IMG/VR virus record: IMGVR_UViG_3300009181_000080
Span: 1 to 62,025 of that record
Length of the DNA stretch: 62,025 nt
Strand: one strand, 5' to 3'
From: a virus
This document shows, one piece after another, positions 40,868-58,170 of the stretch. A model generated the notes under the pieces. It worked only from the letters and a program-made list of their open reading frames with translations, did not search any database and had not been told where the DNA came from. Both the position numbers and the translations under genes were made by a program. How positions within the stretch are numbered: position 1 is the first letter of the stretch; every line of letters starts with the position of its first letter.

Positions 40868-41182
40868 ATGAGTGAACTTGAAACCTTATCCGACGAAATT
40901 AAGCAGGCCACTGACTACCAAGTTAATAAACGTATCCTGCGGGAAAAGATACAAACGGATCTACACTTTACCCACAACGGTGGATTATTTAAAGTGACTC
41001 CGGAACTATTGGCATTCGTGTCAACTTGGTCCGCAGATGAATTGTGCATTGAGGATACTTATCACAATCCAATACAAATTGCTAGAAATGAATTTTTAAT
41101 CCAAGCACAACAGCATTATCAACAAGTAATGAATACATGGCATCAACAACATGCTGAACTTAGAAAAATGCGAAAAGTCTAA
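40868..41182 (+). CDS. Conserved phage protein, small and helical
   Basis: This 104-residue protein is of a kind I recall directly downstream of fibre genes in aquatic T4-like phages, without known function. It is mostly helical. The N-terminal helix contains EIKQATDYQVNKRILREKI, the middle GGLFKVTPELLAFV, and the C-terminal helix is glutamine/histidine-rich (AQQHYQQVMNTWHQQHAEL). No membrane segment. The end overlaps the start of the next gene by 32 bp, beginning the long chain of overlapping genes. It could be a fibre-assembly helper, by position only. Confidence 0.55.
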   Translation: MSELETLSDEIKQATDYQVNKRILREKIQTDLHFTHNGGLFKVTPELLAFVSTWSADELCIEDTYHNPIQIARNEFLIQAQQHYQQVMNTWHQQHAELRKMRKV

Positions 41183-41972: not shown

Positions 41973-42792
41973 AGAACAACAGGGTTTTGTGACATTCGCA
42001 TTAAATTCGGACCAAACAAATTATCTTGAATTAGCATACCTACAAGCACTAAACATCAAAGCAACCCAACAGCTGAATAGCTACGCAGTTATTGTTGATA
42101 GTAATACCAACAAGCTGATGACTGCTAAACACCGCAAGGTATTTGACTATATAATCGTATGTCCGCCCACTGATAAACCATTTGGTATAGAACCATATGT
42201 GGGAAACCTAACACCGTTCAAAGAAACTATAAAACTTGAAAGCGATCTATTATTCACACGGAGCATAGATCATTGGTGGACAGCATTTAGGTTAAAGAAT
42301 ATTTGTTTAAGTAGTGGGGCAAAAAATTATCGTCAACAGGCATCACGTGTACGAAAGTATAGGAAATTATTTGATGATAACAATTTACCAGACATATACA
42401 ATGGACTGATGTATTTTCGTTATACGCAAGAGTCGGTGAACTTTTTTAATACAGCAAAGCAAGTATTCAATAATTGGGATACTATCAAAGATACTTTAAA
42501 AAATTGCAGGGAAGATACGCCAAGTACCGACGTGTTATATGCTATCACAGCATTATTGATTGGCGAAGAAACATGCACTGCACCTAGCTTGGATTTTATA
42601 AATTTTGTACATATGAAATCCGGTATGCAAGGGTGGAGTGATGCAAGGAGTTGGATTGAAACGGTATTAAATGAACGAGACTGTGACGTCATGCGGATCA
42701 ATAATTTAAATCAGTATGACCCAGTCCATTATTACGATAAAACGTATGCCACAGAGGAATTGATCAAATATTATGAGTCCCGAAGAGCTTAA
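41959..42792 (+). CDS. GT-A-like protein, relative of the preceding gene
   Basis: This is a 277-residue protein counted from the GTG at 41959, which gives a short overlap with the previous gene; a TTG 12 bp upstream is an alternative. The opening FVTFALNSDQTNYLELAYLQ parallels the preceding protein. The central acidic motif ESDLLF stands where a DxD would be, and a later PDIYNGLMYFR segment with a conserved asparagine-glycine is common in GT-A transferases. Cysteines are scattered, with no cluster. Likely a sugar transferase or an inactive homologue. The end overlaps the next gene by 20 bp. Confidence 0.45.
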   Translation: MDQFKEQQGFVTFALNSDQTNYLELAYLQALNIKATQQLNSYAVIVDSNTNKLMTAKHRKVFDYIIVCPPTDKPFGIEPYVGNLTPFKETIKLESDLLFTRSIDHWWTAFRLKNICLSSGAKNYRQQASRVRKYRKLFDDNNLPDIYNGLMYFRYTQESVNFFNTAKQVFNNWDTIKDTLKNCREDTPSTDVLYAITALLIGEETCTAPSLDFINFVHMKSGMQGWSDARSWIETVLNERDCDVMRINNLNQYDPVHYYDKTYATEELIKYYESRRA

Positions 42793-43123
42793 GGAATTTT
42801 GTGCCGGCATAAAAGAAATAATACCACCGGTCATTGAGTATAGATTCCACTACGATGATAACGGTGCAATTACTATGTGCTCAATGGTTGGCCATCCCAA
42901 CTCCACTCAGTACATCGTAGTTACTAGAGAAGAGTATGATCGATATTTTGATTATACTATCGTCAATAATCGATTGAAAAAGATAGACAGGGATGCTGGA
43001 TATCGTGTACAATTAGAACGCAGCACTAGAGGATATCCAGTAGTAAGAAACCATGCCGGACTCTTGCTTGAACCAACCGAACCATTTAATGATATAGAAT
43101 ACTATGCCCGTAGAAATAATTGA
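42773..43123 (+). CDS. Conserved hypothetical phage protein
   Basis: This 116-residue protein I recognise only as a recurrent companion of this gene type in phages. It has a short helix (PEELKEFCAGIKEII), then a beta-rich part with IEYRFHYDDNGAITMC, QYIVVTREEYDRYFDY and a basic stretch LKKIDR. There is no catalytic motif, signal or membrane segment. It overlaps both neighbours by 20 bp, so it is embedded between the second and third GT-A-like genes and may be a partner protein. Confidence 0.5.
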   Translation: MSPEELKEFCAGIKEIIPPVIEYRFHYDDNGAITMCSMVGHPNSTQYIVVTREEYDRYFDYTIVNNRLKKIDRDAGYRVQLERSTRGYPVVRNHAGLLLEPTEPFNDIEYYARRNN

Positions 43124-43994
43124 TGTAGCAGACCTAGATTGCATATACTTAACATATGATGAACCTAAAAAAGAAGAATTTTGGATAAAAATCCAAAATA
43201 TGGTGCCGTGGGCAAAAAGAGTTGACGGAGTTAAAGGAAGCGATGCAGCACATAAGGCAGCAGCAGCCGCAAGCGATACCAAACGTTTTATTCTTATCGA
43301 CGGCGATAATATTCCCGATCCTAGTTTTTTTAATCTGCAATTAGCTTTAACTGATAGTAATAAAGATTGTGTATTCCGGTGGAAGGCACGCAATATCATC
43401 AATGGTCTTATGTATGGGAATGGCGGGATGAGTTCGTGGACTAAAGATTTTGTTGATAATATGAAAACACACGAAGCTAGCGACGGCAGTGCGGAAAACG
43501 ATGTAGAGTTTTGTTTTTATCCTAACTACTGGGCAATGAACGATTGTTATAGCACTACCTATCCCAATGGTTCGGCTTTCCAGGCATGGCGAGCTGGATT
43601 CCGTGAAGGCGTAAAAATGTGTTTGGATCGTGGTGCTAAACCTACCCTACAAGAATTTGAAAGCCGGGTGCATAGTCGTAACTACGATCATCTATGTATC
43701 TGGCAAAGTATAGGTGCCGATGTAGAGCATGGTCAAGAAGCGATAGATGGAGCCAGGGCTGGTACTTATTATACTATGCTGACTGGGTGGGATTACAAGC
43801 TAGTCCAGAACTTTGATGAGCTTAAAAAGATGTGGGAAATCATTACACAAGAAAATGCCAATGGAACTATATCACGTGCATTGTGTAGTAGATTAGGGTT
43901 ACCAATTGTCGACATGGATGCAGACGAAAGCCGATTCTTTAAACATCATTATAAGAGTCAGTTTAAAAATCAAGGGCCAATGGTGCGAGAATAA
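43104..43994 (+). CDS. GT-A-type glycosyltransferase-like protein
   Basis: In this 296-residue protein, after an N-terminal Rossmann-like strand set (DCIYLTYDEPKKEEFW, about 12-27), it has the DxD motif D66-G-D68 in FILIDGDNIPD. This is preceded by a helix AAHKAAAAASDTKRF, a layout typical of GT-A transferases in which DxD binds the metal and nucleotide-sugar. A NDVEFCFYPNYWAMND segment (about 133-148) and a HLCIWQSIGADVEHG segment (about 196-210) may line the acceptor site. It ends 2 bp before the 2OG-oxygenase-like gene. Donor and acceptor unknown. Confidence 0.5.
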   Translation: MPVEIIDVADLDCIYLTYDEPKKEEFWIKIQNMVPWAKRVDGVKGSDAAHKAAAAASDTKRFILIDGDNIPDPSFFNLQLALTDSNKDCVFRWKARNIINGLMYGNGGMSSWTKDFVDNMKTHEASDGSAENDVEFCFYPNYWAMNDCYSTTYPNGSAFQAWRAGFREGVKMCLDRGAKPTLQEFESRVHSRNYDHLCIWQSIGADVEHGQEAIDGARAGTYYTMLTGWDYKLVQNFDELKKMWEIITQENANGTISRALCSRLGLPIVDMDADESRFFKHHYKSQFKNQGPMVRE

Positions 43995-43996
43995 TC

Positions 43997-44521
43997 ATGA
44001 TAAACAAAATTAAATTAGATTACGATATTTCTAAGTTCCTAACAGCTGATTACACCCATCATGAGGGTAGCTGTATTAGCCATCAAGTCCACGAACTAAC
44101 AGACATACATGAGAAATATGGTGGTTTCCCAAAGACTTACATATACGAAAATACATTGATACATCAGCTCTGGTGGGATAAATCTCAAATTAACTTTGGG
44201 GAACTTGGTAAGCAATTAGGTATGGAAGTAATCACTGTTAGTACTATTCTACAGCCGCCTGGCTGTATAATCCCACTTCATAGAGATACATTTTTTCAAA
44301 TTAATAAACAGTATCCCAATAAGACAGAAACTAAAGTTCGCGCTAATATTTTTTTAGAAGATTGGAAACTTGGACAGTTCCTTCAATACAACGATGAAGT
44401 ATGTAGTCACTGGCAAGCCGGAGAAGGATTTTTGTGGGATTCGTCTGTTTTACATTTAAGTGCTAATGCTGGCATGCAAGACAAATATACATTACAAGTG
44501 TCGGGATTCCTTGGTGTTTAA
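43997..44521 (+). CDS. 2-oxoglutarate/Fe(II) oxygenase-like protein (Asp/Asn hydroxylase type)
   Basis: This 174-residue protein has the double-stranded beta-helix order: LQPPGCIIPLHRD (85-97) gives the H95-R-D97 metal pair. RANIFLEDWKLGQFLQ (115-130) and GEGFLWDSSVLHLSAN (142-157) follow, giving the third metal histidine H153. KYTLQVSG (163-170) closes it. This matches the aspartyl/asparaginyl hydroxylase-like group of 2OG oxygenases. The role may be hydroxylating a sugar or peptide made by the cluster. It overlaps the next gene by 8 bp if that gene starts at GTG 44514. Confidence 0.6.
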   Translation: MINKIKLDYDISKFLTADYTHHEGSCISHQVHELTDIHEKYGGFPKTYIYENTLIHQLWWDKSQINFGELGKQLGMEVITVSTILQPPGCIIPLHRDTFFQINKQYPNKTETKVRANIFLEDWKLGQFLQYNDEVCSHWQAGEGFLWDSSVLHLSANAGMQDKYTLQVSGFLGV

Positions 44522-45464
44522 AGTTATTCCTGCAGACCGTGCTATATGGAATCAAAATGAATTAATTGATTTTCTAATAGAGCACCAACATACCGATATC
44601 GTATTGTCCACTAATAATGAAGGCCCTGATTGCGCTATACTTGGATTGTATACACTACTAGATAAATTTAATTTTAAATCAGTTAGTATACACACAGCCA
44701 ATCCATTGGAAAAAAGCAATAAGTATAATATTATATCTAAAAGTTTACTATGGGCCCAGGTAAGAAAACCAATTGATGCAAAGTATCATATATGGACACA
44801 GGACCGAGTATTTTCTGCTTATTATGGCAGGCCATTATGGCATCGGATGGGTTTAGCCTCACATTTAAAAACACAACACAATGATATTTCGTATATTAAT
44901 CTTAGGGGAGATTATCATCTTGACGAATCTCGCCGCACCTTCGAATTAACTGATCTATTTTTTAATGCACCAGACCAACTATTAAATTTTTCTAACATAT
45001 CCAGCCAATTGCCGTTAATGGTCGAAACAATAGATGGATACACACCGGGTGTGACTGATACGTCGGGATTCACTGATCAACTAGTAGAGTTTTATACTAA
45101 GGTATTAATTGATATAGTAGCAGAAACATTTACGTCGGGTAATACATTTTTCCCAACAGAAAAAACATTTAGACCGATACTAATGAAAAAACCTTTTATT
45201 GTCATGGGACCTATTAATTATCTGATATACCTGAGACAAATGGGGTTTAAAACATTTTTTGAATATTGGGATGAAGAGTACGATGGGTACGGTCCCAGGA
45301 TTAAATTTCAAAAAATTATAAAATTAATTGATGACCTGTCGAACAAACCTAAAAGCGAGTTATACAGTATGTATCAAAGTATGCAACCTATATTAGAACA
45401 TAACTACAATCTACTGGTATCAAAAACTTACAATAGAAATATAAAATTAGTCAATGACAAATAA
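44514..45464 (+). CDS. TEK-motif family protein, putative glycosyltransferase (member 1)
   Basis: This is a protein of about 317 residues, taking the GTG at 44514 as start (it overlaps the previous stop by 8 bp; an upstream ATG at 44460 would force a long overlap). The C-terminal part has FFPTEKTFRPILMKKPFIVMG, GFKTFFEYWDEEYD and MQPILEHN. The same blocks occur in the genes at 53304 and 61282 and in a divergent form at 46829. The [TS]-E-K-x-[FM]-[KR]-P-[IF] stretch before a hydrophobic strand resembles the donor site of GT-B/exostosin or fucosyltransferase-like enzymes. That link is my inference; phage homologues are mostly unnamed. Confidence 0.5.
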   Translation: MFKVIPADRAIWNQNELIDFLIEHQHTDIVLSTNNEGPDCAILGLYTLLDKFNFKSVSIHTANPLEKSNKYNIISKSLLWAQVRKPIDAKYHIWTQDRVFSAYYGRPLWHRMGLASHLKTQHNDISYINLRGDYHLDESRRTFELTDLFFNAPDQLLNFSNISSQLPLMVETIDGYTPGVTDTSGFTDQLVEFYTKVLIDIVAETFTSGNTFFPTEKTFRPILMKKPFIVMGPINYLIYLRQMGFKTFFEYWDEEYDGYGPRIKFQKIIKLIDDLSNKPKSELYSMYQSMQPILEHNYNLLVSKTYNRNIKLVNDK

Positions 45465-46842
45465 ATCAGACTTTATGGCAAGCGCAGAGTTTATGAAGGA
45501 CAATCTGGGTCCTGCACTTTGTCTTGCTAAATGGAAACAAGTAAGTTTGCATCTTCCCACAGGTCTTAACAATTCATGTTACCATCCACCTTTACATCAG
45601 ATTGATGCTACTGCTTTAAAGGACAACCCCGGTGCATTACATAATACGGAACATAAAAAGAAACAACGTGTTATGATGCTTAAACAAGAAAAACCCAGCG
45701 AGTGTAGCTATTGCTGGAATATGGAATCAACCGGTAATCTAAGCGATCGCCACTATCGGTCGGGTGAGCCATGGGCCGCTATTGACTATGAAGCAATTAA
45801 AAATTCAACAGGAAATGAAGATGATGTTATTCCGTCGTACGTCGAAGTTAACTTTAATCACAATTGTAATCTTAAATGTAGTTATTGCAGTCCACAGTTT
45901 AGTTCGAGCTGGATGCAAGAAGTTGACAAACTTGGAGGGTATCCCACTACTACTATTCATAATGACCCTAGTCATTTTGTTGGAAGGAATCGTCCTATAC
46001 CACATTCCCACGATAACCCATATGTCGAAGCCTTTTGGGAATGGTGGCCTAAGTTATATTCCTCTCTAAAACACTTCCGCATGACCGGTGGCGAACCACT
46101 AATGGATAAAAATACCTATAAGGTATTTGACTATGTATTATCATTTCCCAATCCCGAACTACATCTAGATGTGACTAGTAACTTCAGTGTTGAACCACAA
46201 TTGTGGAACAAATATATTGATTATGTTAAACGATTGTGTAACACACAAATTGAACATTTTATGCAGTATGTTAGTTTAGATTCAGGTATTCCTGCCCATG
46301 CTGAATACATACGTAACGGGTTAAGTTTTGCAAGAGTTCAAAACAGAGTGAATCATTTTTTGTTTGATATCCCTTATCGTAATAGCCTAACATTCATTAT
46401 TACCATGAATAATTTAAGCGTATTAGGGTTACAGCAACAGCTAGAGTGGATATTGAGATTGCGTAAGCAATACAGCACAACATATCAGCGTGTGTGGTTT
46501 GATACACCAGTATTACGTAAACCGGAATGGCAAAGTTTACAGATACTTCCCCCTATATATGTGGGAGTGTTAGAACGGGTAGCAGATTGGATGGAACTTA
46601 ATCTAGAAACGCCCGATATCCCATTCCAGGGGTTTAAGGACTATGAAGTACAACGGTTACGCAGAGATATAGCCTGGATGAAGGACGGTTGCAATCTAGA
46701 TCCAGTATATGTTAAACTACATAGAGGAAACTTTTATCGTTTCTTTAATGAACACGACAAACGTCGTAATACTAACTTTTTAGAAACTTTTCCCGAAATG
46801 TTTGAATTTTGGAACGAATGCAAGTATCATGCCAAACAATAA
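45454..46842 (+). CDS. Radical SAM protein with N-terminal cysteine/histidine auxiliary cluster
   Basis: In this 462-residue protein, the N-terminal 90 residues carry C23, C42-Y-H44, C84-x2-C87, a twitch-like cluster in which a histidine stands where other members have a second cysteine. The radical SAM motif is C138-x3-C142-x2-C145 (NCNLKCSYC), followed by a TGGEP block (about residue 211). It is most like the protein at 49448, with the same cluster spacing and an F-x-x-x-F-P-E-[ML] end. It overlaps the TEK-motif gene before and after it. Substrate unknown. The paired placement with TEK-motif proteins recurs at 52097-54284. Confidence 0.85.
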   Translation: MTNKSDFMASAEFMKDNLGPALCLAKWKQVSLHLPTGLNNSCYHPPLHQIDATALKDNPGALHNTEHKKKQRVMMLKQEKPSECSYCWNMESTGNLSDRHYRSGEPWAAIDYEAIKNSTGNEDDVIPSYVEVNFNHNCNLKCSYCSPQFSSSWMQEVDKLGGYPTTTIHNDPSHFVGRNRPIPHSHDNPYVEAFWEWWPKLYSSLKHFRMTGGEPLMDKNTYKVFDYVLSFPNPELHLDVTSNFSVEPQLWNKYIDYVKRLCNTQIEHFMQYVSLDSGIPAHAEYIRNGLSFARVQNRVNHFLFDIPYRNSLTFIITMNNLSVLGLQQQLEWILRLRKQYSTTYQRVWFDTPVLRKPEWQSLQILPPIYVGVLERVADWMELNLETPDIPFQGFKDYEVQRLRRDIAWMKDGCNLDPVYVKLHRGNFYRFFNEHDKRRNTNFLETFPEMFEFWNECKYHAKQ

Positions 46843-47869
46843 AATAGGGTACCTGGATTATAAAGATTTATTAAACATATTACCAGGGCATAAAAAAAGA
46901 TTGTTAGATATTAGCTGTCTATCAATTGATCAAATCCTTAAATCAATTGATCAATTAAACAGTAATTTTGATACAGTAGTATTAGCTAATGTTGACCCTT
47001 GGTTTCATAATGACACTGAAGAACAAATATTTGATCATCCAAAATTATCAAACAAATTTGTGTTCTTACAAACACAGCAATATGATAATAGTTATTTAGG
47101 AAATCACAAATGGCATATTAGTTTTCCTGCATGGTATATTAATAGAATACTACCCAAAAATAATCAGTTTAAGGCAAAGCCCAAAAATTTAAATTATGGA
47201 TTTGGCTCACTGAATAACAGGCCGGCATTGCATAGGTTATTACTTGGCATAGAATTAAACAACAGAAATTTATTAAAAAATATTGTATTTACGCAAAACA
47301 ACTCTCATATATTAAGTGGAGAGACAGCAGTAGAATATACGCCAGGAAAAATTGATCCTAGATTTTATCAAGATGAAGCATGGTTAAACAGTCAACCGGG
47401 GTTCCAAGCGTATAAAAAATTGTTACCAATATTGTGGCAAAATCAACCAATTGAAAATCGGCAAGATGTTTATCATTATGCCGAAACTGATACATATTGT
47501 AATATAACAACAGAAGCCGCTACTGAACATATTCCTTATAACTGTAGTATCAATTTGCCAGAAATTAGTGAAAAAAGCCATAAACCTTTTATTAGTGGAC
47601 AAATTCCTGTATACTTAGCAGCACAAGGGCATAACACATATCTTAAAGATTTAGGCTACGACCTCTTTGATGAATTGTTACCTGCTAATTTTGATAATTA
47701 TAATACACTTAGTAAAATTAATTCTATAGTTAATTTAATTGAGCAAGGGAAAGAGTTCATTGAACAAATTTATTTTGATAATATTAACAGAATTAAACAC
47801 AATTATAAATTAATATCTGAGCAAACAACGGATAAGATTATTTTAAAAAGAATCCAGGATTTATTATGA
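46829..47869 (+). CDS. TEK-motif family protein, divergent (member 2)
   Basis: This protein has 346 residues from the ATG at 46829, chosen because it gives a short overlap (14 bp) with the previous gene. The family resemblance is seen in YGFGSLNNRPALHRLLLGIEL (about 125-145, in part), the region before the donor-type block. It is also seen in ISEKSHKPFISGQIPVYLA, a degenerate form of the TEK-motif stretch, followed by YLKDLGYDLFDEL. The motif changes (S-E-K-S-H-K-P-F) could mean a changed or lost activity. It is strongly AT-rich, with few stops in other frames. It ends before the only real gap in the accessory operon. Confidence 0.45.
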   Translation: MPNNKIGYLDYKDLLNILPGHKKRLLDISCLSIDQILKSIDQLNSNFDTVVLANVDPWFHNDTEEQIFDHPKLSNKFVFLQTQQYDNSYLGNHKWHISFPAWYINRILPKNNQFKAKPKNLNYGFGSLNNRPALHRLLLGIELNNRNLLKNIVFTQNNSHILSGETAVEYTPGKIDPRFYQDEAWLNSQPGFQAYKKLLPILWQNQPIENRQDVYHYAETDTYCNITTEAATEHIPYNCSINLPEISEKSHKPFISGQIPVYLAAQGHNTYLKDLGYDLFDELLPANFDNYNTLSKINSIVNLIEQGKEFIEQIYFDNINRIKHNYKLISEQTTDKIILKRIQDLL

Positions 47870-47897
47870 TGACCAAGTATCTTATACATTGTGCTAA

Positions 47898-47911
47898 ATG
47901 AATATATTCAT
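47898..47911. promoter_or_regulatory. 14-bp perfect palindrome in the operon gap
   Basis: ATGAATATATTCAT is a perfect palindrome in the 88-bp gap before the radical SAM gene at 47958, the only sizeable gap between 40868 and 61289. It could be an operator or an RNA stem. No convincing -35/-10 pair or late box is seen beside it. Confidence 0.35.
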
Positions 47912-47957
47912 CAACACGTATTGCATTACCAAAGATTAAATAATACACTATACTTAA

Positions 47958-48005
47958 ATGCCTAGACAACAAAACGAAACAGATTCGGAATACAAACGCA
48001 GGGTA
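47958..48005 (+). repeat. Leader repeat, copy 1 of 2
   Basis: This 48-bp leader matches 49448-49495 at 38 of 48 positions by eye, both starting at an ATG and coding for 13 of 16 identical residues. The two copies bracket the bulk of the radical SAM gene at 47958. Confidence 0.8.
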
Positions 48006-49478
48006 GTTTGTATTGGCGATGGCTCGGCACTAGCAGAAGAACGGTCAAAAATCCAAGCAATAAAGCATAATCTTGTTTACCGAGGTATATTAGATAATTC
48101 AACACTCTTAGATGATGGATGTTATCATACTAGTATATACGATATTACTCTAATAGAATTACAAAATAAAATTAACGATGATGTTAAAATCATCGTTCTT
48201 GACATTGATGAGACATATTATAAATCCGTAACAGAATACTACAATACTATTAACATGGGGCAGGCACTACAAAACACGGCAGAAGTAGAATTTATAAATC
48301 AAAAAATGCAAAATCCGTTTGTGCAATTGGTTGATGAAAATAAAACTTTTTGTATTATGCCGTTTGTGGCATTATATAAAGATGGAAGTAAATCTAGAGT
48401 TTGTTGTTATATGTCATCCCCGGTTACCACTACTTACACAGACTTTAATACAGATCCCGCTCTTAATAAAATTAGAACCGATTTGTTATTGCCTAATCGA
48501 CCAATTGAACAATGTAAGTATTGTTATAATCTTGAAAATAATAATGTAATAAGTCCCAGGCAAACATATACAATTAATTGGACATATAAATTAAATTTAA
48601 AATCCTTTGATGATGTAGTACGCCGTACTACATTGTTAGATTATGATATCCGATTAACTAATAAATGTAATTTACTTTGTCGTTCGTGTGCGCCGGGTGC
48701 AAGCCATTTAATAGGTAAAGAATATTTTAAAATAGGATTAACTAATACTAATATAGGATTAAAGACGGTCGAATCATACGATATCATTGATTTAACAACG
48801 GTTCGTCGTGTATATGTTGCTGGCGGTGAACCTACGATTGATACTGAATTTTTTAAATTTTTACAAAAATGCATCGACTTAAATAAACTTGATTTTGAAT
48901 TTATTATTAATACAAATGCCGTAGTTACTAGCCAAAAATTTCTTAATCTAATTAAACATTTTACAAATTTAAAATTTGAAATTAGTTTAGACGGATTTGA
49001 CGAGATTAATCATTATGTTCGATGGCCGAGTAATTGGGAAAAAATAAAAACAAATATAATAAAATTAAATCAAGTTAGCGACGGAAGAATTTCGACAAAT
49101 ACTGTAGTATCAATTTACAATATAGGTAGACTTTACAAATTATTTGAATTTTTAGAAAATACATATCCTATTGCTCAACGGCATTTATCTATTTTAGTGA
49201 ATCCGGACGTACAGCAAGCATATAATTTTCCAGATAAAAAATTTGCGTTAGATGATTTAGAAAAAATGAAATTGTTAAGAACATATCAAATTGATGCAAC
49301 GTTTAAAAGTAAAGTAGATTACTTAATTACAGAAATAACTAACTCGGACATAAATTTTGATCTCTTAGAGAAATTTTTTAAATTCAATGATAAATTAGAT
49401 ACATCAAGGGGTGTTAAACTATACGACTATATACCGGAGCTAGAAGCATGCCGAGAATCAATAACGAAACAGATTTAG
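47958..49478 (+). CDS. Radical SAM protein with extra N-terminal domain and duplicated leader
   Basis: In this 506-residue protein, residues 1-16 (MPR-x2-NETD-x-EYKRRV) are nearly the same as the start of the next radical SAM protein at 49448. Residues 17-125 form an unrecognised alpha/beta domain. Residues 132-189 hold an auxiliary pattern C132, C149-C150, C186-x2-C189. The core motif is C237-x3-C241-x2-C244, followed by an AGGEP block (about 279). The closing residues come from a different frame of the repeated leader. A cargo gene with a copy of the following gene's start in front is the same arrangement as at gp46. Substrate unknown. Confidence 0.8.
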   Translation: MPRQQNETDSEYKRRVVCIGDGSALAEERSKIQAIKHNLVYRGILDNSTLLDDGCYHTSIYDITLIELQNKINDDVKIIVLDIDETYYKSVTEYYNTINMGQALQNTAEVEFINQKMQNPFVQLVDENKTFCIMPFVALYKDGSKSRVCCYMSSPVTTTYTDFNTDPALNKIRTDLLLPNRPIEQCKYCYNLENNNVISPRQTYTINWTYKLNLKSFDDVVRRTTLLDYDIRLTNKCNLLCRSCAPGASHLIGKEYFKIGLTNTNIGLKTVESYDIIDLTTVRRVYVAGGEPTIDTEFFKFLQKCIDLNKLDFEFIINTNAVVTSQKFLNLIKHFTNLKFEISLDGFDEINHYVRWPSNWEKIKTNIIKLNQVSDGRISTNTVVSIYNIGRLYKLFEFLENTYPIAQRHLSILVNPDVQQAYNFPDKKFALDDLEKMKLLRTYQIDATFKSKVDYLITEITNSDINFDLLEKFFKFNDKLDTSRGVKLYDYIPELEACRESITKQI

Positions 49479-49495
49479 AATATAAACGCAGAGTA
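49448..49495 (+). repeat. Leader repeat, copy 2 of 2
   Basis: This is the second copy of the leader. Its first 31 bp double as the 3' end of the upstream gene in another frame, so the upstream gene runs into the copy. Confidence 0.8.
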
Positions 49496-50797
49496 ATCGA
49501 TATAAAGTCGGAGTCTTTCTGCGGAGCCAAATGGTACAATGCCACTATATGGTTGGGTAGCGGTATGACCACAAGTTGCCATCACCCCTTGCCACATAAG
49601 GTCCCGGTAGAGGATGTGCTGGCCAATCCCAAGGCATTGCATAATACACAAAAGAAAAAGATGGAACGCGAGCAGATGCAAAAAGGCGAACGGCCATCTG
49701 GGTGCGAATATTGTTGGAAGATAGAAGATATCGGACGAGACAATATAAGTGATAGAGTATATAAGACAGTTATATACTCTGATGAGGATTTAGATTATGC
49801 ATATACTACACCGCCAGGCACGGACATAGATTTACAGACCCTTGAAATCGCTTTTGACCGTACTTGCCAATTTGCTTGTAGCTATTGTAACCCTGCGTTC
49901 TCAACTACATGGGTCAAAGATATCAAACAAAATGGCCCGTATACTAATCTAGTATCTGATGGCAGGAACCACTTCACACACCCACACACCAGTAGCCAAT
50001 TGTATAAAGTAAACGAAGTCAATCCATATATAGAAGCGTTCTTTAAATGGTGGGAATCGGATCTCCATAGGACGTTGCAGGAACTACGGATAACTGGCGG
50101 TGAGCCATTGATGTCGGGTCATACATGGAAATTATTAGATTGGTTTAAAACCAATAAAGGTCGTAGTAATACACGTCTGGCAATTAACAGCAATCTTGGG
50201 ACCGATGTTGATATAGATAGGCTACTTGAAAACACACGAGATGTAGTATTTGATCTATATACCAGTAACGAAGCAGTTGGGCTACAAGCTGAATATATAC
50301 GCGATGGGCTAGTATGGCAAGATTGGGCGGATAACATGGAGAAGCTAATGCAAAGTAATCAATTGCGCGGCCTACATGTTATGTGTACCATCAACGCATT
50401 ATGTTTGGATAGCTTACCTACATTACTCGACATCATCGTCCAATGGAAACAAGAGAATGGCGATGACTTCCCTAACTTCTCGCTAAATATATTACGCTTC
50501 CCTAGTTTCCAAAGTCCCTTGGTATTACCCGACGATATACGCACGGAATACAAAGATAATTTACAAATTTGGTTTGACAACAATAAAGATAACGAGTTCC
50601 TCCATCAGATGGAACTTAATCAAGTCCAACGATTAATAGATTATCTTGATGTAGTTAAAACTCCACACACTGGATCGGCGGAACGATCAGTATTACAGCA
50701 AGACTTTAAACAATTTTATGTACAATACGATCAACGTCGAAATAAAAGCTTCACAACAACATTTCCTAAATTAGCAGATTGGTTTAACTCATTATGA
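49448..50797 (+). CDS. Radical SAM protein with N-terminal cysteine/histidine auxiliary cluster
   Basis: In this 449-residue protein, after the leader (1-16) come C25, C44-H-H46 and C86-x2-C89, the same auxiliary pattern as the protein at 45454. The core motif is C140-x3-C144-x2-C147 and an ITGGEP block follows (about 217). The closing FVQYDQRRNKSF-type segment, in various forms, ends several of these proteins. Similarity to 45454 suggests a duplication before the other radical SAM gene entered between them. It overlaps the next gene by 4 bp (ATGA). Substrate unknown. Confidence 0.85.
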   Translation: MPRINNETDLEYKRRVIDIKSESFCGAKWYNATIWLGSGMTTSCHHPLPHKVPVEDVLANPKALHNTQKKKMEREQMQKGERPSGCEYCWKIEDIGRDNISDRVYKTVIYSDEDLDYAYTTPPGTDIDLQTLEIAFDRTCQFACSYCNPAFSTTWVKDIKQNGPYTNLVSDGRNHFTHPHTSSQLYKVNEVNPYIEAFFKWWESDLHRTLQELRITGGEPLMSGHTWKLLDWFKTNKGRSNTRLAINSNLGTDVDIDRLLENTRDVVFDLYTSNEAVGLQAEYIRDGLVWQDWADNMEKLMQSNQLRGLHVMCTINALCLDSLPTLLDIIVQWKQENGDDFPNFSLNILRFPSFQSPLVLPDDIRTEYKDNLQIWFDNNKDNEFLHQMELNQVQRLIDYLDVVKTPHTGSAERSVLQQDFKQFYVQYDQRRNKSFTTTFPKLADWFNSL

Positions 50798-52110
50798 CAG
50801 ATAATATAGATAATTACTACAAAAACTACAACTACGGTGCCCGCAAGCCCATATACATTAAAGAGGAAGAACTACGCACAGACCAACTTGATCGACTAAT
50901 TAAAAGCGATCAGTTCTGCATGATCCCGTGGATACATATGCATGGCTTTCCTGATGGTCGCGCATATCCTTGTTGTTTAAGTGAACCACAGCATCCGATT
51001 GGTGACTTGAAAAAGAATACCATGCGGGAGATTTGGAATCAAGATCCCCTGAAACAAATGCGTGTTAATATGCTTAACAATAAACCTTGCAAAGAATGTA
51101 CAAAATGTTATGAGCAAGAAAAGAGTAATTTGTTTAGTATGCGGGAAAGCAGTAATAAAAACTTTGGTCATCTAGTAAAGCTAGTCGACGATACCAAACC
51201 CGACGGCACACAAGAAGATTTTAAATTACGTTACTATGATATTCGATTTAGCAATCTATGTAATTTTGCATGTCGTACTTGTGGCAGCATCTTCAGTAGC
51301 AATTGGTTTAAAGATGAAAAAGCCGCAGGGTGGGATCCACAACACCCAATGGTGATGTATGCCGGCAAAGATGAGCATGATATGTGGGAACAGATGCAAG
51401 AACATATTCCGCATCTTGAACAGATATATTGGGCCGGCGGCGAACCATTGATCATGAAGGAACATTGGAAAGTATTAGATGAACTAGTTAAACGGAAAAT
51501 GTTCCATGTTCGTTTGATCTATAATACAAACTTCAGCGAACTTAAATTTAAAGGGCGCGATGTCCTTGAAATGTGGAAACTGTTTGATTGTGTTAGTGTT
51601 GGTGCCAGTTTAGATGGAAACTATGAACGCGGTGAATATATTCGTAAGGGCCAGAACTGGAAAGAAACTGTGGAAAACAGAGAACGTATGTTACAGATAT
51701 GTCCCAACGTTGATTTCTATGTCAGTAGCACCGTTAGTATGATGAATGTACTGCATATCACAGACTTTCATAAAGAGTGGGTTGAACTTGGCTTACTACG
51801 TCCAATGGATTGGAACATCAACATACTACAGCATCCATTCCGTTATCGTGTGGATGTGCTACCACAGCATTTAAAAGAGCAGGCAAAAGCAAAACTAGAA
51901 GAACATATCAAATGGCTAGAGCCTTTAGATACGTTATCGAGAGCCACAAGCGGGTACAAAGGTATTATTAATTTTATGATGCAACAAGATGGCACAAATC
52001 AATTATCGGAATTTTTTAGAAATAATAATACTATAGACAGAGTGCGTAACGAAGATTTCTTTAAAGTATTCCCTGAACTCATTGACCTGAAAAACTATGC
52101 CCCTACCTAA
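50794..52110 (+). CDS. Radical SAM protein with N-terminal twitch-like cysteine cluster
   Basis: In this 438-residue protein, an N-terminal polar stretch (1-38) precedes CMIPW at C42, then C60-C61 and a C99-x2-C102-x2-C105 group, the auxiliary cluster. The core motif is C156-x3-C160-x2-C163, and a AGGEP block is near residue 215. The order and spacing (C-x17-CC, then C-x2-C) is that of the twitch-radical SAM proteins in bacterial surface-polysaccharide loci. It starts at an ATGA overlap and ends overlapping the next radical SAM gene by 14 bp. Substrate unknown. Confidence 0.87.
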   Translation: MTDNIDNYYKNYNYGARKPIYIKEEELRTDQLDRLIKSDQFCMIPWIHMHGFPDGRAYPCCLSEPQHPIGDLKKNTMREIWNQDPLKQMRVNMLNNKPCKECTKCYEQEKSNLFSMRESSNKNFGHLVKLVDDTKPDGTQEDFKLRYYDIRFSNLCNFACRTCGSIFSSNWFKDEKAAGWDPQHPMVMYAGKDEHDMWEQMQEHIPHLEQIYWAGGEPLIMKEHWKVLDELVKRKMFHVRLIYNTNFSELKFKGRDVLEMWKLFDCVSVGASLDGNYERGEYIRKGQNWKETVENRERMLQICPNVDFYVSSTVSMMNVLHITDFHKEWVELGLLRPMDWNINILQHPFRYRVDVLPQHLKEQAKAKLEEHIKWLEPLDTLSRATSGYKGIINFMMQQDGTNQLSEFFRNNNTIDRVRNEDFFKVFPELIDLKNYAPT

Positions 52111-53314
52111 AACAATTTGTATGTTACCTTGGATCAGCATCGAAACCAGTCCAATTGGATCTGTGCGTCCTTGCTGTTTAGCCACAGACGAAATCACTAA
52201 ACCCAATGGTGAAAAGTTTGATCTGAACGTAGATACGTTAAGCACTATATATCGCAGTGAGTATATGCAAGATCTACGTAAACGATTCCGTGCTGGGGAA
52301 AAGCCCGAAACTTGTAAAAGATGTTGGGAAGAGGAAGATGCGGGCCGCACAAGTAAGCGTATGCATACACGGGTTAGGTTCAAACACGAAGTAGATAAAG
52401 TAGATTTCGCCAACGATAACCCGGATCAGCTTTGGTTTGTTGATTTAAAGTTAGGTAATATCTGCAATTTAAAATGTCGTATATGCGGCTCGTGGTCCAG
52501 TAGTTCGTGGGCACAAGAAGAAATGGGTTATATAAAACATGTTCCTGATCGCAAGCAACACATAGCCTATACTTGGTTACAGCAAGGGCAATGGCCACGT
52601 AATAAAAATAGCGATACTTTTTGGAATGACATGAAAGAGATGCTACCCCAAGTTCGTTATTTTGAGTTTACTGGTGGCGAACCATTTATGATCCCCGAGC
52701 ACTTTGAGCTACTACAATATGCCGTGGATCAAGGATACAGTAAAAATATTGAAATCCACTACAATACCAACGGCACACAATGGCCTGAAAAGTACATACA
52801 CTTATGGCAAGAGTTTAAGTATGTTGAAATAGCATTCAGTATCGACAATATAGGCGCACGATTTGAATACGAAAGATTTGGTGCCAAATGGCATGAAGTA
52901 GAAGAAAACATCGCAAAGTTCCAAGCATTGCGTGATAGATCAAATAACATAACTACCCAAGTATGCATGACGATTAACACACAGAACGTTTACTATCTAG
53001 AAGAATTATGCCACTGGGTATCACGACAAAATTTTAACTACGATTACTTTAATATGTTACATGATCCTAAACATCAAAACATTGGATCAATGACACAGGC
53101 CGCTAAGGACTTAGTCATTGCAAAATTAGAGTCTGGAAGTTTTAAAACAAAACATAAAGTAGAAATTGATCGGATCATACAGTTTATTAAAAATGGTAAT
53201 ACTGGAGACGGGAATAAGTTTTTATTTGATATGAAGCGTGCCGACGAATTTAGAAAACAAAGTTTCATGACCACACATCCAGAAATAGCAAGAGCCATGG
53301 GTTATGAAGATTAG
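52097..53314 (+). CDS. Radical SAM protein with N-terminal twitch-like cysteine cluster
   Basis: In this 405-residue protein, the auxiliary pattern begins right at the N-terminus (C8, C26-C27, C73-x2-C76). The core motif is C123-x3-C127-x2-C130, with a TGGEP block near residue 195. From the first cysteine to the final HPEIARAMGY it parallels the minus-strand protein at 4477-6060, which has 130 extra residues in front. The two are the closest pair among the eight. It overlaps the following TEK-motif gene by 11 bp. Substrate unknown. Confidence 0.87.
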   Translation: MPLPKTICMLPWISIETSPIGSVRPCCLATDEITKPNGEKFDLNVDTLSTIYRSEYMQDLRKRFRAGEKPETCKRCWEEEDAGRTSKRMHTRVRFKHEVDKVDFANDNPDQLWFVDLKLGNICNLKCRICGSWSSSSWAQEEMGYIKHVPDRKQHIAYTWLQQGQWPRNKNSDTFWNDMKEMLPQVRYFEFTGGEPFMIPEHFELLQYAVDQGYSKNIEIHYNTNGTQWPEKYIHLWQEFKYVEIAFSIDNIGARFEYERFGAKWHEVEENIAKFQALRDRSNNITTQVCMTINTQNVYYLEELCHWVSRQNFNYDYFNMLHDPKHQNIGSMTQAAKDLVIAKLESGSFKTKHKVEIDRIIQFIKNGNTGDGNKFLFDMKRADEFRKQSFMTTHPEIARAMGYED

Positions 53315-54284
53315 ATTGGTTAATTTTTACGGGAATAATAACTTAACAGTGCCAGCACACGAAGGTAACATAAAGGACTGGTTTGATATAGAATTTTTTG
53401 ATAGACAAACTACGTACGATAAAGCCAATACGGTCTTTATAATGAATAATTATCAATATTTAGAAAATAAACCATATATTGATAAGTTGATAGAAAACGG
53501 ACACAAATTCGTATCGGAGAATTTATGTGAATCAAGTTTGATCGAAGAACAATTTAGAAATCATCCCAACGTTTTACATTTTTATTGTGCTAATGAGGAA
53601 GCAGAGCACAATACAAATATACATCCAATACCGATGTTTTTTTGGTATCGAGAAAGTAGAAGCTTCCGGGATTACAAACAATTAATCAGGCTTGTTAATA
53701 TCGATAAAAAATTCGTTAATAAAAAATTTTTATTATTAATGAATCTTGCTAAACCCTTTAGAGATAACATATACAATAAATTTCTTCCTATTCTTGATGA
53801 TGCGATTTATAGTTACGTAGGCAAAAATAAACACCCACCCGGTGACATACCGCGAGATACGTTTGAATGGGATCGATTTATAAATATAGATTGGTACAAT
53901 CATACAGAGTTTAGTGTGGTGGTAGAAACTAATATATCGATGTCAAACGACCGTATTTTTATCACAGAAAAAACAATGAAGCCAATAGCATTGCGTCATC
54001 CGTTTGTATCTTTAAGTTGCCCCGGGACACTACGGTTACTTAAAAAATCTGGATTTGAAACCTTTGAGAATTTATTTGATGAATCGTATGACTTATCTGT
54101 TTACCCAAATGCAAATATAGATTCAATATACACACAAGTAAAAGATTACAATCACGTTGGATACGATTTCCTTACACAACAAAAGTTAGAACACAATCAT
54201 AATTGGTTCTATAACGAGCAAGAAATAACTCGTAGATTCACCAACGATATCGTTAATCCGATATTAGAGTTTGTAAATGGATAA
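53304..54284 (+). CDS. TEK-motif family protein, putative glycosyltransferase (member 3)
   Basis: In this 326-residue protein, the C-terminal block reads FITEKTMKPIALRHPFVSLS, then LKKSGFETFENLFDESYD and LEHNHNWFYNEQE, matching the proteins at 44514 and 61282. The N-terminal half (KIRLVNFYGNN...) has a Rossmann-like pattern with VFIMNNYQYL and KFVSENLCES. A two-domain, GT-B-like or fucosyltransferase-like layout is my best guess. It is sandwiched between two radical SAM genes with short overlaps on both sides, so the products are probably made in similar amounts. Confidence 0.5.
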   Translation: MKIRLVNFYGNNNLTVPAHEGNIKDWFDIEFFDRQTTYDKANTVFIMNNYQYLENKPYIDKLIENGHKFVSENLCESSLIEEQFRNHPNVLHFYCANEEAEHNTNIHPIPMFFWYRESRSFRDYKQLIRLVNIDKKFVNKKFLLLMNLAKPFRDNIYNKFLPILDDAIYSYVGKNKHPPGDIPRDTFEWDRFINIDWYNHTEFSVVVETNISMSNDRIFITEKTMKPIALRHPFVSLSCPGTLRLLKKSGFETFENLFDESYDLSVYPNANIDSIYTQVKDYNHVGYDFLTQQKLEHNHNWFYNEQEITRRFTNDIVNPILEFVNG

Positions 54285-55566
54285 ACCGGATACACTATGC
54301 ATGGCTCCGTGGACACATACCTATCTAAGTCCACAAACTGAACGACGCATGTGTTGTGCGTCACGGGAGCCCGCACAAAATTTCCAACAGTATATAGATA
54401 CCAGTGCAGGGACTGGCAAGTATATACCTATCACACTGGACGAACATTGGAACAGTGATCATATGCGCTCAGTGAGAAAACGTATGATGTCCGGTGAAAC
54501 ACTACCTGAGTGCGAAGTATGCAATGATAAGCTATTAAACACTGATGTTTACCGAAGTTATTTTAATCAATTGTTTGGACATAAATATTTAGACGCGATG
54601 GCAAATACCGATAATGATGGTTCCACAACTGTCAGACCCGTATCATGGGATTATCGTTTTAGCAATCTCTGTAATTTTAAATGCCGTATGTGCGGTGATA
54701 TGCTGTCCAGTGCGTGGGAAAGCGAACAACGCCAACACGATATGATCGATTACTCCAATCCAAAAAACAACTGGATGATCCCTGCAGTAAAACAACAAAT
54801 TGAAAAGTTTCAAGACACCCAAATTGAAGCAGAATTTTCCCAAGCAGTAGAAGAACACAGAGTAGAAGAAGTATATTGGGTAGGTGGCGAACCGTTGATG
54901 TATGAACAACATTGGCGATATATGAAACGCATCATTGAACTTGGAGACGGAAAAAATGTTTACGCTAGATATAATACAAATCTCAGTAGGATTGATTATC
55001 GTGGTATTAATTTGTATAGGGACATACTATCTGGGATTCGTGACTGGCAAATCTGTGCGAGTATTGACGGAACGGGAAGAATTGGCGAGTATATTAGATC
55101 AGGTCTTGATTTTGATCAGTGGCTTAAAAACTTCCGTCAAGGAGTTGAACACAGCCGTAACCGCCGCCAGATGCGTATGGACTTCACTCTTACTACACCG
55201 GGACTCTTTGAAGTACAAAAAATACAATCGCTTGCCCAAGAGCTAGGCGTCGAGGTTCTGGCAAAAGTAGTGTTTAGTTTTAGTCCGGATATCATTATGT
55301 CACCGCTAGCACTACCCCGGGAAATATTACATCCTTGGGTAGACGAAATTAAGCACTCCATTGATAAAGGAGCTCTACATGACATACTGGTACAACTTAA
55401 AACTAGACCTACTTTTGCTGAACAATGGCCCAATGAATATCAAGATGGGTTGATACGTGGCAAAGAACGTATTTTAAAACTTGAACAAATACGTAAAGAT
55501 GTATATACTATGAGTGATATACTAGCCAAAAGGCCGCAAGTACTAGAATGGTGGAACTCAATTTGA
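54277..55566 (+). CDS. Radical SAM protein with N-terminal twitch-like cysteine cluster
   Basis: In this 429-residue protein, the auxiliary pattern is C8, C26-C27 and C79-x2-C82. The core motif is C132-x3-C136-x2-C139, and the VGGEP block is near residue 209. A SIDGTGRIGEYIRSG segment (about 265) matches the SxD strand of SPASM-type enzymes. It overlaps the TEK-motif gene before it by 8 bp and the next gene by 19 bp. It is the last of the six radical SAM genes in this operon. Substrate unknown. Confidence 0.87.
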   Translation: MDKPDTLCMAPWTHTYLSPQTERRMCCASREPAQNFQQYIDTSAGTGKYIPITLDEHWNSDHMRSVRKRMMSGETLPECEVCNDKLLNTDVYRSYFNQLFGHKYLDAMANTDNDGSTTVRPVSWDYRFSNLCNFKCRMCGDMLSSAWESEQRQHDMIDYSNPKNNWMIPAVKQQIEKFQDTQIEAEFSQAVEEHRVEEVYWVGGEPLMYEQHWRYMKRIIELGDGKNVYARYNTNLSRIDYRGINLYRDILSGIRDWQICASIDGTGRIGEYIRSGLDFDQWLKNFRQGVEHSRNRRQMRMDFTLTTPGLFEVQKIQSLAQELGVEVLAKVVFSFSPDIIMSPLALPREILHPWVDEIKHSIDKGALHDILVQLKTRPTFAEQWPNEYQDGLIRGKERILKLEQIRKDVYTMSDILAKRPQVLEWWNSI

Positions 55567-56645
55567 AACAAGTTAATGTTGTACTACGTAACCCCCTGGA
55601 CAAGCAAGATCAGATCACATATATAATTGATGTCAATGATACACCAATGGCCAATAATTGGTATACCGCACTACAAGACATACTTAGACAAAATAAGTAT
55701 CTAGAGAAGAACTTTTGCTTTTTAGGATTTCCAGATAGTGCCCGTAACCTTGATTTTATATGCGACGAATTAAACTGGGCCCGCGATCAAATTAATAGTT
55801 TTTTTGATAAAGACGATTATTACATTGATGAAGTATATACTCCATACTTTATGCGTAATAGTAAAACCCTAGCACCAAATCAATCTGCTATGAATTTGTT
55901 ACATAATAGGTTTGAACATTTACAGGGAACCGTAGAGAATTTAAGTGACTGGTATAAACGTGCAGACTACCAAACAAAATTTGCCATACGTCAATTAAAC
56001 AATCTATGCCACGAAGCAGAGAGTTTAATGTTGAGTCAACGTAAGCAACAAGAATTGCCTGAATGGGTTCGCCCAAGCCAAATCACAACATTTTTAAATG
56101 TACAGAGACTAGAATTTCCTACAGAACTTAAAACAACGTTTGATGAAACTAGATTTGATAGGAAGTTCGGCGAAGTGTATTTGCATTGGTCACAGATTGG
56201 CAAGACATTATACGAAGTATATCGCGATGAACAAGGTGTAGATATTGATGATGCTACGTGCGACGCTATTACCCATCTACATTTATATAGCGGGGAATTT
56301 GATATAGAATGGGCACAGGATGTTGTATTCAATGGTCCGCATCCGTGGCACACTAAAGAAATGTCTGGCTTTCGTGATTGGCTAGTACGCAATGGATTTG
56401 ATCCGCTAGATACAAAATATAACTATGGATATCACCCAGTTGGGCAAGTTGATTTACAGACTAGTTTTGGAACAAGCGATTTTAAAATGGTATGGCCTAT
56501 ACTGAGTAAATATCTTGACATATATCAAATTACAGCCGGTGCTGCAACAGCAACATTTGACTACACCTGGTCCGACCCAGACTACTATGAACAACAAATT
56601 AACAGGATGATACCAGGATATGATTATAGTAGCGGCCGGCGATAG
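55548..56645 (+). CDS. Conserved hypothetical protein linked to radical SAM genes
   Basis: This 365-residue protein I cannot place in a family. The N-terminal part is beta-rich (VNVVLRNPLDKQDQITYIIDV). A helical middle (about 115-185) contains NQSAMNLLHNRFEHLQGTVE. The C-terminal half is rich in aspartate, histidine and aromatic residues (DAITHLHLYSGEFDIEWAQ, GPHPWHTKEMSGFRDWL, YGYHPVGQVDL). The clustered histidines and acids could form a metal site, but I see no known motif. It starts inside the last radical SAM gene and runs into the first of the SGNH-like genes. A partner or acceptor protein for the cluster is possible. Confidence 0.55.
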   Translation: MVELNLKQVNVVLRNPLDKQDQITYIIDVNDTPMANNWYTALQDILRQNKYLEKNFCFLGFPDSARNLDFICDELNWARDQINSFFDKDDYYIDEVYTPYFMRNSKTLAPNQSAMNLLHNRFEHLQGTVENLSDWYKRADYQTKFAIRQLNNLCHEAESLMLSQRKQQELPEWVRPSQITTFLNVQRLEFPTELKTTFDETRFDRKFGEVYLHWSQIGKTLYEVYRDEQGVDIDDATCDAITHLHLYSGEFDIEWAQDVVFNGPHPWHTKEMSGFRDWLVRNGFDPLDTKYNYGYHPVGQVDLQTSFGTSDFKMVWPILSKYLDIYQITAGAATATFDYTWSDPDYYEQQINRMIPGYDYSSGRR

Positions 56646-57444: not shown

Positions 57445-57517
57445 GATTGTACTAGAAATTCGTTATCGCAAGAAGCTTAAAGAATTACGTAAAAGAGATC
57501 CGTTTATCTACAAATGA
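57416..57517 (+). CDS. 33-residue basic micro-protein, coupled to both neighbours
   Basis: The frame from ATG 57416 to TGA 57517 codes for 33 residues. It starts MKWLKNWYNRIVLEIRYR, is followed by a lysine/arginine/glutamate helix and ends DPFIYK. It begins inside the upstream SGNH gene, and its TGA overlaps the ATG of the next SGNH gene (ATGA). The sequence is a plausible amphipathic basic helix and resembles short proteins I have seen in other aquatic phages. It could be a small regulator, chaperone-like or membrane-associated peptide, or merely translational coupling. It fills the gap of about 70 bp between two genes, which supports it being real. Confidence 0.6.
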   Translation: MKWLKNWYNRIVLEIRYRKKLKELRKRDPFIYK

Positions 57518-58170
57518 TTAAACATATATTGGCAGTTGGTGATAGTTTTACCTATGGGGAAGAACTTGATAATAGAGATAATGCTTATCCATACTATCTG
57601 GCTAAAGGACTAAAGGCCAATGTAGTTAATTTGGCGATTCCGGCTGGCGGCAACGACCAAATGGTAAGAAAAGTGATTAACTATGTAGTCAGTGGGGATC
57701 CAATTGATTTAGCTATTATCGGGTGGACAAGTCCCGGGCGTATGGAGTTTGCAGATGCCGCGGGAACATATGATATATGGCCTGGATATTCGGGACCAAA
57801 GTACAATGACATGGAATGGCGTCTAGAACTACTACAAAATATTAATAAGCATCATGATCCAAGGTACTTATATGAAAAATATATAGTTAATGTGATACTA
57901 CTACAGAGTTTTCTCAAAGAACGTAATATAAAATATTGCATGATTACTACAGCCGCTAATGAATACTATCATAAAACGATGTATAACGATGATCAGGCAC
58001 TACCAAAATTAATAGATCAGCAATACTATTTGGGATGGCCAAACGAAGGCATGGCAGAGTGGACGAATGGATGTAAGCGTGGCCCCAGTGGTCATTTTCT
58101 CGAAGAAGGTCACAGGAAGGTGACAGCAAAACTTTATGAACATATTAGGAATCTCGGCTGGCTTTCATGA
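57514..58170 (+). CDS. SGNH/GDSL-like hydrolase or acyltransferase
   Basis: In this 218-residue protein, block I is VGDSFTYGEEL (serine 11 as nucleophile). VVNLAIPAGGNDQMVRK (about 37-53) has the glycine and asparagine of blocks II-III. The closing GHFLEEGHRKV gives the catalytic histidine with glutamate/leucine in place of the usual aspartate. It is close in layout to the 56620 protein but shorter. It starts in an ATGA overlap with the micro-ORF and overlaps the carbamoyltransferase start by 35 bp. The substrate is unknown; deacylation or acyl transfer on a sugar is plausible. Confidence 0.62.
   Translation: MIKHILAVGDSFTYGEELDNRDNAYPYYLAKGLKANVVNLAIPAGGNDQMVRKVINYVVSGDPIDLAIIGWTSPGRMEFADAAGTYDIWPGYSGPKYNDMEWRLELLQNINKHHDPRYLYEKYIVNVILLQSFLKERNIKYCMITTAANEYYHKTMYNDDQALPKLIDQQYYLGWPNEGMAEWTNGCKRGPSGHFLEEGHRKVTAKLYEHIRNLGWLS

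Follow-up and report, generated by a model that had tools for sequence, protein, structure and literature searches.

What are six radical S-adenosylmethionine (SAM) genes doing side by side behind the tail-fibre genes of a phage, and are they copies of one enzyme or different enzymes that belong together? The question is raised by the virus record IMGVR_UViG_3300009181_000080 of IMG/VR, of which the stretch from position 1 to 62,025 (62 kb, hereafter the window) was analysed. It carries T4-like genes for the baseplate wedge and hub, a late sigma factor and an SbcC/SbcD-like pair, and its tail-fibre region is followed by a block of radical SAM genes, which lie on a single strand and mostly overlap or abut. 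We found that five of the six recur as distinct subtypes in one fixed order in many viral contigs and are paralleled by similar sets in Bdellovibrionota. Judged from their sequences, the six proteins in 45454-55566 belong to the radical SAM enzymes, as does a seventh at 4477-6060, and all have a predicted auxiliary-cluster domain ahead of the core. Their matches to the NCBIfam model NF033640 (N_Twi_rSAM, twitch domain-containing radical SAM protein; length 398, curated cut-off 170 bits) are given below, together with one radical SAM protein of contrasting layout.

45454-46842, plus strand: rS1, predicted N-terminal-twitch radical SAM protein of class C-x18-S-C-Y-H (the 'AKW' class); NF033640 298.8 bits.
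47958-49478, plus strand: rS2, predicted N-terminal-twitch radical SAM protein with C-x16-CC and about 127 extra N-terminal residues, an optional member of the cassette; 228.5 bits.
49448-50797, plus strand: rS3, predicted N-terminal-twitch radical SAM protein of class C-x18-S-C-H-H; 296.8 bits.
50794-52110, plus strand: rS4, predicted N-terminal-twitch radical SAM protein of class C-x17-CC; 413.8 bits.
52097-53314, plus strand: rS5, predicted N-terminal-twitch radical SAM protein of class C-x17-CC; 353.1 bits.
54277-55566, plus strand: rS6, predicted N-terminal-twitch radical SAM protein of class C-x17-CC (CCASREP); 299.3 bits.
4477-6060, minus strand: seventh predicted N-terminal-twitch radical SAM protein, outside the array, nearest to rS5, with about 130 extra N-terminal residues; 311.8 bits.
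1017-1871, minus strand: contrasting radical SAM protein, in which the core precedes a C-terminal cysteine stretch; match to NF033640 below the cut-off, at core positions 110-308 only.

With regard to the array itself, scans with three of its proteins, in which single proteins and a one-group alignment served as queries, gave 221 loci, dereplicated to 143 contigs. All of rS1, rS3, rS4, rS5 and rS6 are present in 108 of the 143 contigs, many of the incomplete ones being truncated, and the exact order rS1-rS3-rS4-rS5-rS6 is kept in 103. Among the 108 complete arrays, the junction rS3|rS4 is tight in 92 and the junction rS4|rS5 in 91 (about 85%), and inserts occupy the slot rS1|rS3 in 58 and the slot rS5|rS6 in 65. 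The rS2 gene of the window and two genes of a family that we call F are such inserts. Relatives of rS2 occur in few contigs and are always divergent, so rS2 is an optional extra outside the fixed set. In addition, rS2 (47958-48020) and rS3 (49448-49510) start with the near-identical peptide MPRxxNETDxEYKRRV, and this shared opening suggests that rS2 may have been inserted or recombined at the rS3 start. The five phage groups are about 20-30% identical to one another. Within groups, conservation above that of the tail proteins is biased by the way the loci were collected for rS1, rS3 and rS4. Fair evidence comes from the proteins not used as bait, with median identities of 77% for rS6, 70% for GTc (the protein encoded directly before the array) and 67% for a carbamoyltransferase, against 41-45% for the tail-fibre proteins (36719 and 38809). 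The initial annotation had suggested distinct subtypes working together rather than simple copies. The distinctness is strongly supported by the five groups, their single order in 103 of 143 contigs, and the separate clades and co-occurrence in Bdellovibrionota described below. That they work together can reasonably be supposed from the invariant order and the overlapping genes. The ground first given for the subtypes, two cysteine-to-histidine replacements, was half misread (see below), and reversed domain order alone is a trait already catalogued for the family.

Isolated phages present a different picture. When 50,697 records of isolated phages were searched with array proteins, Vibrio phages alone gave matches, and these are distant (21-24% identity); a small cluster of such distant relatives lies in Vibrio phage K566. 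GTc was absent from all of these records, and the complete set was found in none of them, judged by the three array proteins searched; thus the set would otherwise go unseen. A plasmid search with 49448 gave no match.

The domain order is evident from several sources. All seven proteins exceed the NF033640 cut-off with 228.5-413.8 bits, in full-length matches that span model positions 1-3 to 385-397 of 398. The pattern first read from the letters, C-x16..18-C and C-x2-C followed by the core C-x3-C-x2-C, is present in that order in every one of them. In four of these proteins (50794, 52097, 54277 and 4477), Pfam reports a SPASM match that precedes Radical_SAM, the one in 54277 being slightly below the cut-off. 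In rS4, SPASM (3.7e-12) covers residues 42-105 and Radical_SAM 151-324, and in rS5 they cover residues 8-77 and 119-307, respectively. Pfam misses the front domain in 45454, 47958 and 49448, where the motif and the profile alignment place it before the core. The core cysteines C140/C144/C147 (C-x3-C-x2-C) and the GGE-type SAM motif G217-G218-E219-P220 are invariant in an alignment of 67 sequences. It is apt to describe this layout as SPASM order reversed, but the order is already catalogued as NF033640, and the motif is half of the SPASM one, that is, a twitch. The NF033640 model shares with the array proteins the N-terminal twitch followed by the core; it is silent on arrays, subtypes and function, and the AKW class (S-C-[Y/H]-H) forms a sub-branch of it. 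On the other hand, the protein at 1017-1871 matches only the core positions of the model, as expected if its domain order is the usual one. In its sequence the core does precede a C-terminal stretch, C-x18-CC ... C-x3-C, where a cluster had been noted, but profile support for reading that stretch as twitch-like is weak (hhalign E 0.013, probability 3%). The proteins at 4477-6060 and 47958-49478 each carry about 130 residues of unassigned nature before the twitch domain.

Each of the five main groups (135, 129, 129, 120 and 112 orthologues from viral contigs) keeps all four front and all three core cysteines at 100%, and therefore the pattern is not due to chance. In rS1, the invariant cysteines across 135 sequences are C23, C42, C84 and C87 in front and C138, C142 and C145 in the core. 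The front domains fall into two fixed classes, C-x17-CC (x16 in 47958) and C-x-A-K-W...S-C-[Y/H]-H-P...H with x18. The AKW class thus also differs in spacing, C-x18-S-C versus C-x17-C-C. The stretch CYHPPLH of rS1 and the stretch CHHP..H of rS3 (129 sequences) are fixed in essentially every orthologue of their groups, and of the 112 rS6 sequences 109 have CCASRE[PDS]A. A replacement of the second cysteine of the CC pair by histidine, proposed earlier for both 45454 and 49448, applies to 49448 (CHH); in 45454 the residue is tyrosine (CYH), in agreement with the orthologues, and the swap was rejected for that protein. Both rS1 and rS3 have a histidine one residue further on, where two bacterial members carry leucine.

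Which cysteine of the pair would be the ligand depends on the alignment. An ungapped alignment pairs the lone cysteine of the AKW class with the second cysteine of the CC pair, contrary to the assignment that we favour. We took it as the counterpart of the first because of the G-x4-C motif, the predicted strands and the alignment with BtrN. The second cysteine, tyrosine or histidine would then probably be a conserved neighbour of the cluster, not a ligand. Binding of a [4Fe-4S] cluster by the four front cysteines is inferred from homology, and homology likewise gives the answer to the refuting check first proposed, whether these cysteines come together in a predicted structure.

This homology was obtained with a profile of the front domain, whose sole match among 177,635 PDB sequences was the twitch of BtrN (residues 169-238, E 0.005), a dehydrogenase of butirosin biosynthesis (PDB 4M7S/4M7T). 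The four ligands C169, C187, C232 and C235 of BtrN all align with the four front cysteines. C187 pairs with the first of the two CC cysteines; at the position where the array proteins have the second cysteine or Y/H, BtrN carries phenylalanine. The auxiliary cluster of BtrN is a [4Fe-4S] cluster on four cysteines in the C-terminal domain and is thought to accept the substrate electron during dehydrogenation (PMC6231123, PMC9012708). Since all four ligands align with this C-terminal twitch, the front domain is best read as a relocated twitch, not a SPASM domain, in other words a BtrN-like twitch that was shifted to the N terminus and whose ligand set is predicted to be closed. The seven-cysteine motif of SPASM is Cx9-15Gx4C-gap-Cx2Cx5Cx3C-gap-C (PMC6231123), and the array proteins have no further cysteine between Cx2C and the core. 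They share with the SPASM maturases (anSME, CteB, SuiB and PqqE) the radical SAM core, a domain of the same fold family and the Cx12-13Gx4C half-motif. They differ in having half of the seven-cysteine motif without the AuxII cysteines, in carrying the domain on the opposite side of the core, and in that no peptide-binding domain was found. AlphaFold2 models of rS3 and rS4, for which proteins of the window and the loci were aligned, are confident and agree with the BtrN alignment. The front cysteines are C25, C44, C86 and C89 in rS3 and C42, C60, C61, C102 and C105 in rS4. In the rS3 model (pLDDT 92.8, pTM 0.92), strands lie at 31-35 and 40-42 and a helix at 84-94; in the rS4 model (pLDDT 94.6), strands lie at 48-51 and 56-58 and a helix at 100-110. 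In both models a hairpin lies between cysteines 1 and 2 and a helix runs up to C-x2-C, and the strand positions set C44 of rS3 opposite C60 of rS4. The top Foldseek matches in the PDB were anSME, CteB, SuiB, viperins and BlsE, with low TM-scores.

Separate phylogenies of the core and the N-terminal part, which had been proposed as a check, gave concordant results. The AKW class is split off by a single branch in both trees (100/99 for the core alone, 100/100 for the N-terminal part alone), and rS6 with its bacterial relatives is likewise recovered in both (100/99 and 100/100). In the core trees, rS1 and rS3 are recovered as groups, and rS4 and rS5 along with close relatives (from marine phages and the 4477-6060 protein, which groups with rS5). 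The grouping of rS1, rS3, rS4 and rS5 is less sharp in the short N-terminal trees. There was no sign of swapping of front domains between subtypes in the comparison of the two, and twitch and core appear to have been inherited together. Moreover, all five phage groups have Bdellovibrionota members nearby, and therefore the subtypes would predate the split between the phage and bacterial sets. The trees present the set as ancient and made of distinct subtypes, not of recent copies.

These bacterial relatives were missed by a first scan of bacterial genomes with 50794 as query, which gave no match. When the rS3 (49448) group was used to scan 84,980 species genomes, 14 loci were obtained, of which four are phage-like contigs and ten lie in mostly Bdellovibrionota metagenome-assembled genomes. 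The four (L230, L231, L232 and L235) were rejected as bacterial loci, because their tail-gene context suggests phage contigs that were placed in bacterial bins. Matches above the cut-off were found in 41 of the 144 genomes from the phylum of genome G002 (Bdellovibrionota) and were absent from the 14 control genomes. In family searches, as many as 37 matches (E <= 0.001, some below the cut-off) came from a single Bdellovibrionota genome. One locus (L234/L261) has a single island of rS3-, rS6-, rS5-, rS4-, rS5-, rS1- and rS3-type genes flanked by genes read as rplU-rpmA-obg and lgt, and another (L257) has seven family genes after what is read as the ATP synthase operon. Since they lie amid ordinary chromosomal genes, these sets are chromosomal, not misbinned phage. 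Some arrays have two rS3-like copies. The rS1-like bacterial genes adjoin GT1, GT2, GH26 and YdjC genes, AsnB-type genes lie near rS1-like genes or clusters, and a UDP-glucose pyrophosphorylase gene lies near one cluster. Dense clusters of N-terminal-twitch genes were seen at L254-L255, L257 and L259-L260, with about 15 genes in some 30 kb in genome G006, interspersed with Asp/Asn-hydroxylase, 2-oxoglutarate (2OG)-oxygenase and unassigned genes. A four-gene array (L236/L258) lies beside a tyrosine-recombinase-like gene, with conjugative-type genes further off (both read from sequence), a context hinting at mobility of the set. A further Bdellovibrionota region (L264, 11157-12875) combines N-terminal-twitch genes with a carbamoyltransferase gene, like the phage array.

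In the viral contigs, tail-fibre and glycosyltransferase-like genes lie upstream of the array, and the 55548 gene, SGNH-type genes and the carbamoyltransferase gene downstream. The neighbours in the window are as follows.

40868-41182, plus strand: small conserved gene after the tail-fibre genes, at the same place in most contigs.
41151-41972 and 41947-42792, plus strand: two paralogous glycosyltransferase-like proteins, a weak label (glycogenin E 0.87; DxD-like motif read from sequence).
43104-43994, plus strand: GTc, directly before the array; DGDN motif; its median identity of 70% comes from loci not selected for it.
44460-45464, plus strand: F1 of the F family, with the family motif TEKTxRPI...PFIVxG...GFxTFxxxWDExYD.
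46802-47869, plus strand: F2 of the F family, in the variable slot rS1|rS3.
53304-54284, plus strand: F3 of the F family, in the variable slot rS5|rS6.
55548-56645, plus strand: conserved protein directly after the array in most contigs, median identity 53%.
57514-58170, plus strand: SGNH/DUF6071-type protein (Pfam DUF6071 4.9e-7), conserved after the array.
58136-59611, plus strand: carbamoyltransferase (Carbam_trans_C 1e-46, Carbam_trans_N 2e-36), conserved after the array.

The SGNH/DUF6071-type and carbamoyltransferase genes were found in 116-144 loci. In the family of the glycosyltransferase-like pair, one of 23 members matches Mannosyl_trans3 (E 0.03). In profile searches, GTc matched no known family and no solved relative, the F family had no Pfam or PDB match, and the 55548 protein had no solved relative; the DGDN motif suggests that GTc is perhaps a glycosyltransferase. 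The F family has a fourth member at 61282-62013, shares the motif TEKTxRPIxxxxPFIVxG...GFxTFxxxWDExYD and occupies variable slots around and within the array. Four SGNH-like proteins are encoded in the phage (3617-4363, 56620-57444, 57514-58170 and 59602-60297), two of them with Pfam DUF6071 matches. The protein at 60310-61170 combines a P-loop kinase-like N-terminal half (APS_kinase/AAA) with a C-terminal half in whose sequence HxGH-type nucleotidyltransferase motifs can be read. The T4-type late promoter core TATAAATA occurs twice in the window (565-572 and 53879-53886) versus 12.75 expected by chance, and is thus rarer than chance despite the encoded late sigma factor.

What the five enzymes do can be proposed tentatively. 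The architecture and the BtrN homology suggest a two-electron radical oxidation, in which the core cluster of each enzyme would cleave SAM and lead to hydrogen abstraction from the substrate, and the fully cysteine-ligated auxiliary cluster would accept the second electron as in BtrN, the net result being dehydrogenation, or epimerisation or cross-linking. Because the order is invariant, the genes overlap and the five subtypes are non-redundant, rS1, rS3, rS4, rS5 and rS6 may act in succession on one shared substrate. We lean toward, without relying on it, a sugar or glycan that would end on the tail fibre or the host surface and be further carbamoylated and acylated or deacylated by neighbour proteins. 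A glycan is favoured by the carbamoyltransferase, the SGNH proteins, the weak glycosyltransferase-like proteins and the bacterial contexts with GT1, GT2, GH26, YdjC, AsnB-type and UDP-glucose pyrophosphorylase genes. Several points weigh against this proposal. The glycosyltransferase label upstream of the array is weak, with no Pfam match beside the glycogenin E value and none for GTc or the F family; the nearest folds include the peptide-modifying anSME, CteB and SuiB; the match to BtrN is modestly significant (E 0.005); the structure models were judged by secondary structure and homology; and the L234/L261 array lies among housekeeping genes without a recognisable glycan gene adjoining it.

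The main alternative is that the array modifies a peptide or protein, introducing cross-links, epimers or oxidations on a tail fibre, an adhesin or a small encoded peptide. We keep such a substrate as an option because of the solved relatives and the tail-fibre position: characterised SPASM/twitch enzymes act mostly on peptides, the best Foldseek matches include three such enzymes, and the tail-fibre genes lie immediately upstream in conserved order. It nevertheless seems rather unlikely, since Pfam and NCBIfam report no peptide-binding domain in the array proteins (the recognition element, RRE, of ribosomally synthesised and post-translationally modified peptides, RiPPs, is not among their matches, and very divergent binding domains could escape), the overlapping or abutting genes leave scant room for a precursor peptide gene, though distant precursors are possible, and the neighbouring genes encode a carbamoyltransferase and SGNH proteins instead of peptidases or exporters. 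Phages also employ radical SAM enzymes on nucleic acids, and viperin-like enzymes turn up both among the closest folds and among the solved relatives. Action on a nucleotide or DNA base, as hypermodification or in a viperin-like chain-terminator pathway, is however improbable, because every array protein scores 15-35 bits (maximum 34.5) against the viperin family NF038283, far under its cut-off of 180 and thus outside that family, the array sits amid tail and surface-type genes instead of DNA metabolism genes, and Bdellovibrionota have the same set without phage genes.

Simple gene amplification, with recent copies of overlapping function kept for dosage, would fit the large local expansions in Bdellovibrionota, up to the 37 matches in one genome, and the doubled rS3-like copies. 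As a general account it is hardly credible, and for the five core members it is ruled out by the low identity between groups, the separate clades and the fixed order in 103 contigs. It could account for extra members such as 47958.

Radical SAM genes in such phages have been reported before. A T4-like uncultured viral genome of 183 kb has 12 of them (PMC5332604), and radical SAM cassettes of pelagimyophages are located in the host-recognition region (PMC7029224). What the array phages share with these is a T4-like, uncultured background and a large number of radical SAM genes, while the N-terminal twitch, the five orthologous subtypes, the fixed order and the bacterial counterpart do not appear in the parts of these accounts that we consulted. 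Titles and abstracts of the open-licence literature on the N-terminal twitch or on Bdellovibrionota radical SAM proteins gave no account of a conserved multi-enzyme array.

Finally, we may speculate, with some doubt, that five N-terminal-twitch enzymes common to T4-like phages and Bdellovibrionota make a new glycan or amino-acid decoration on fibres and surfaces, and that the CC and S-C-[Y/H]-H classes mark two uses of the auxiliary cluster. Most often, radical SAM enzymes work alone or in pairs. A conserved unit of five in many environmental phages, paralleled in Bdellovibrionota, points to unknown chemistry. The array is also a natural experiment on the role of the auxiliary cluster, with its domain on the opposite side of the core and two fixed classes of ligand neighbourhood.

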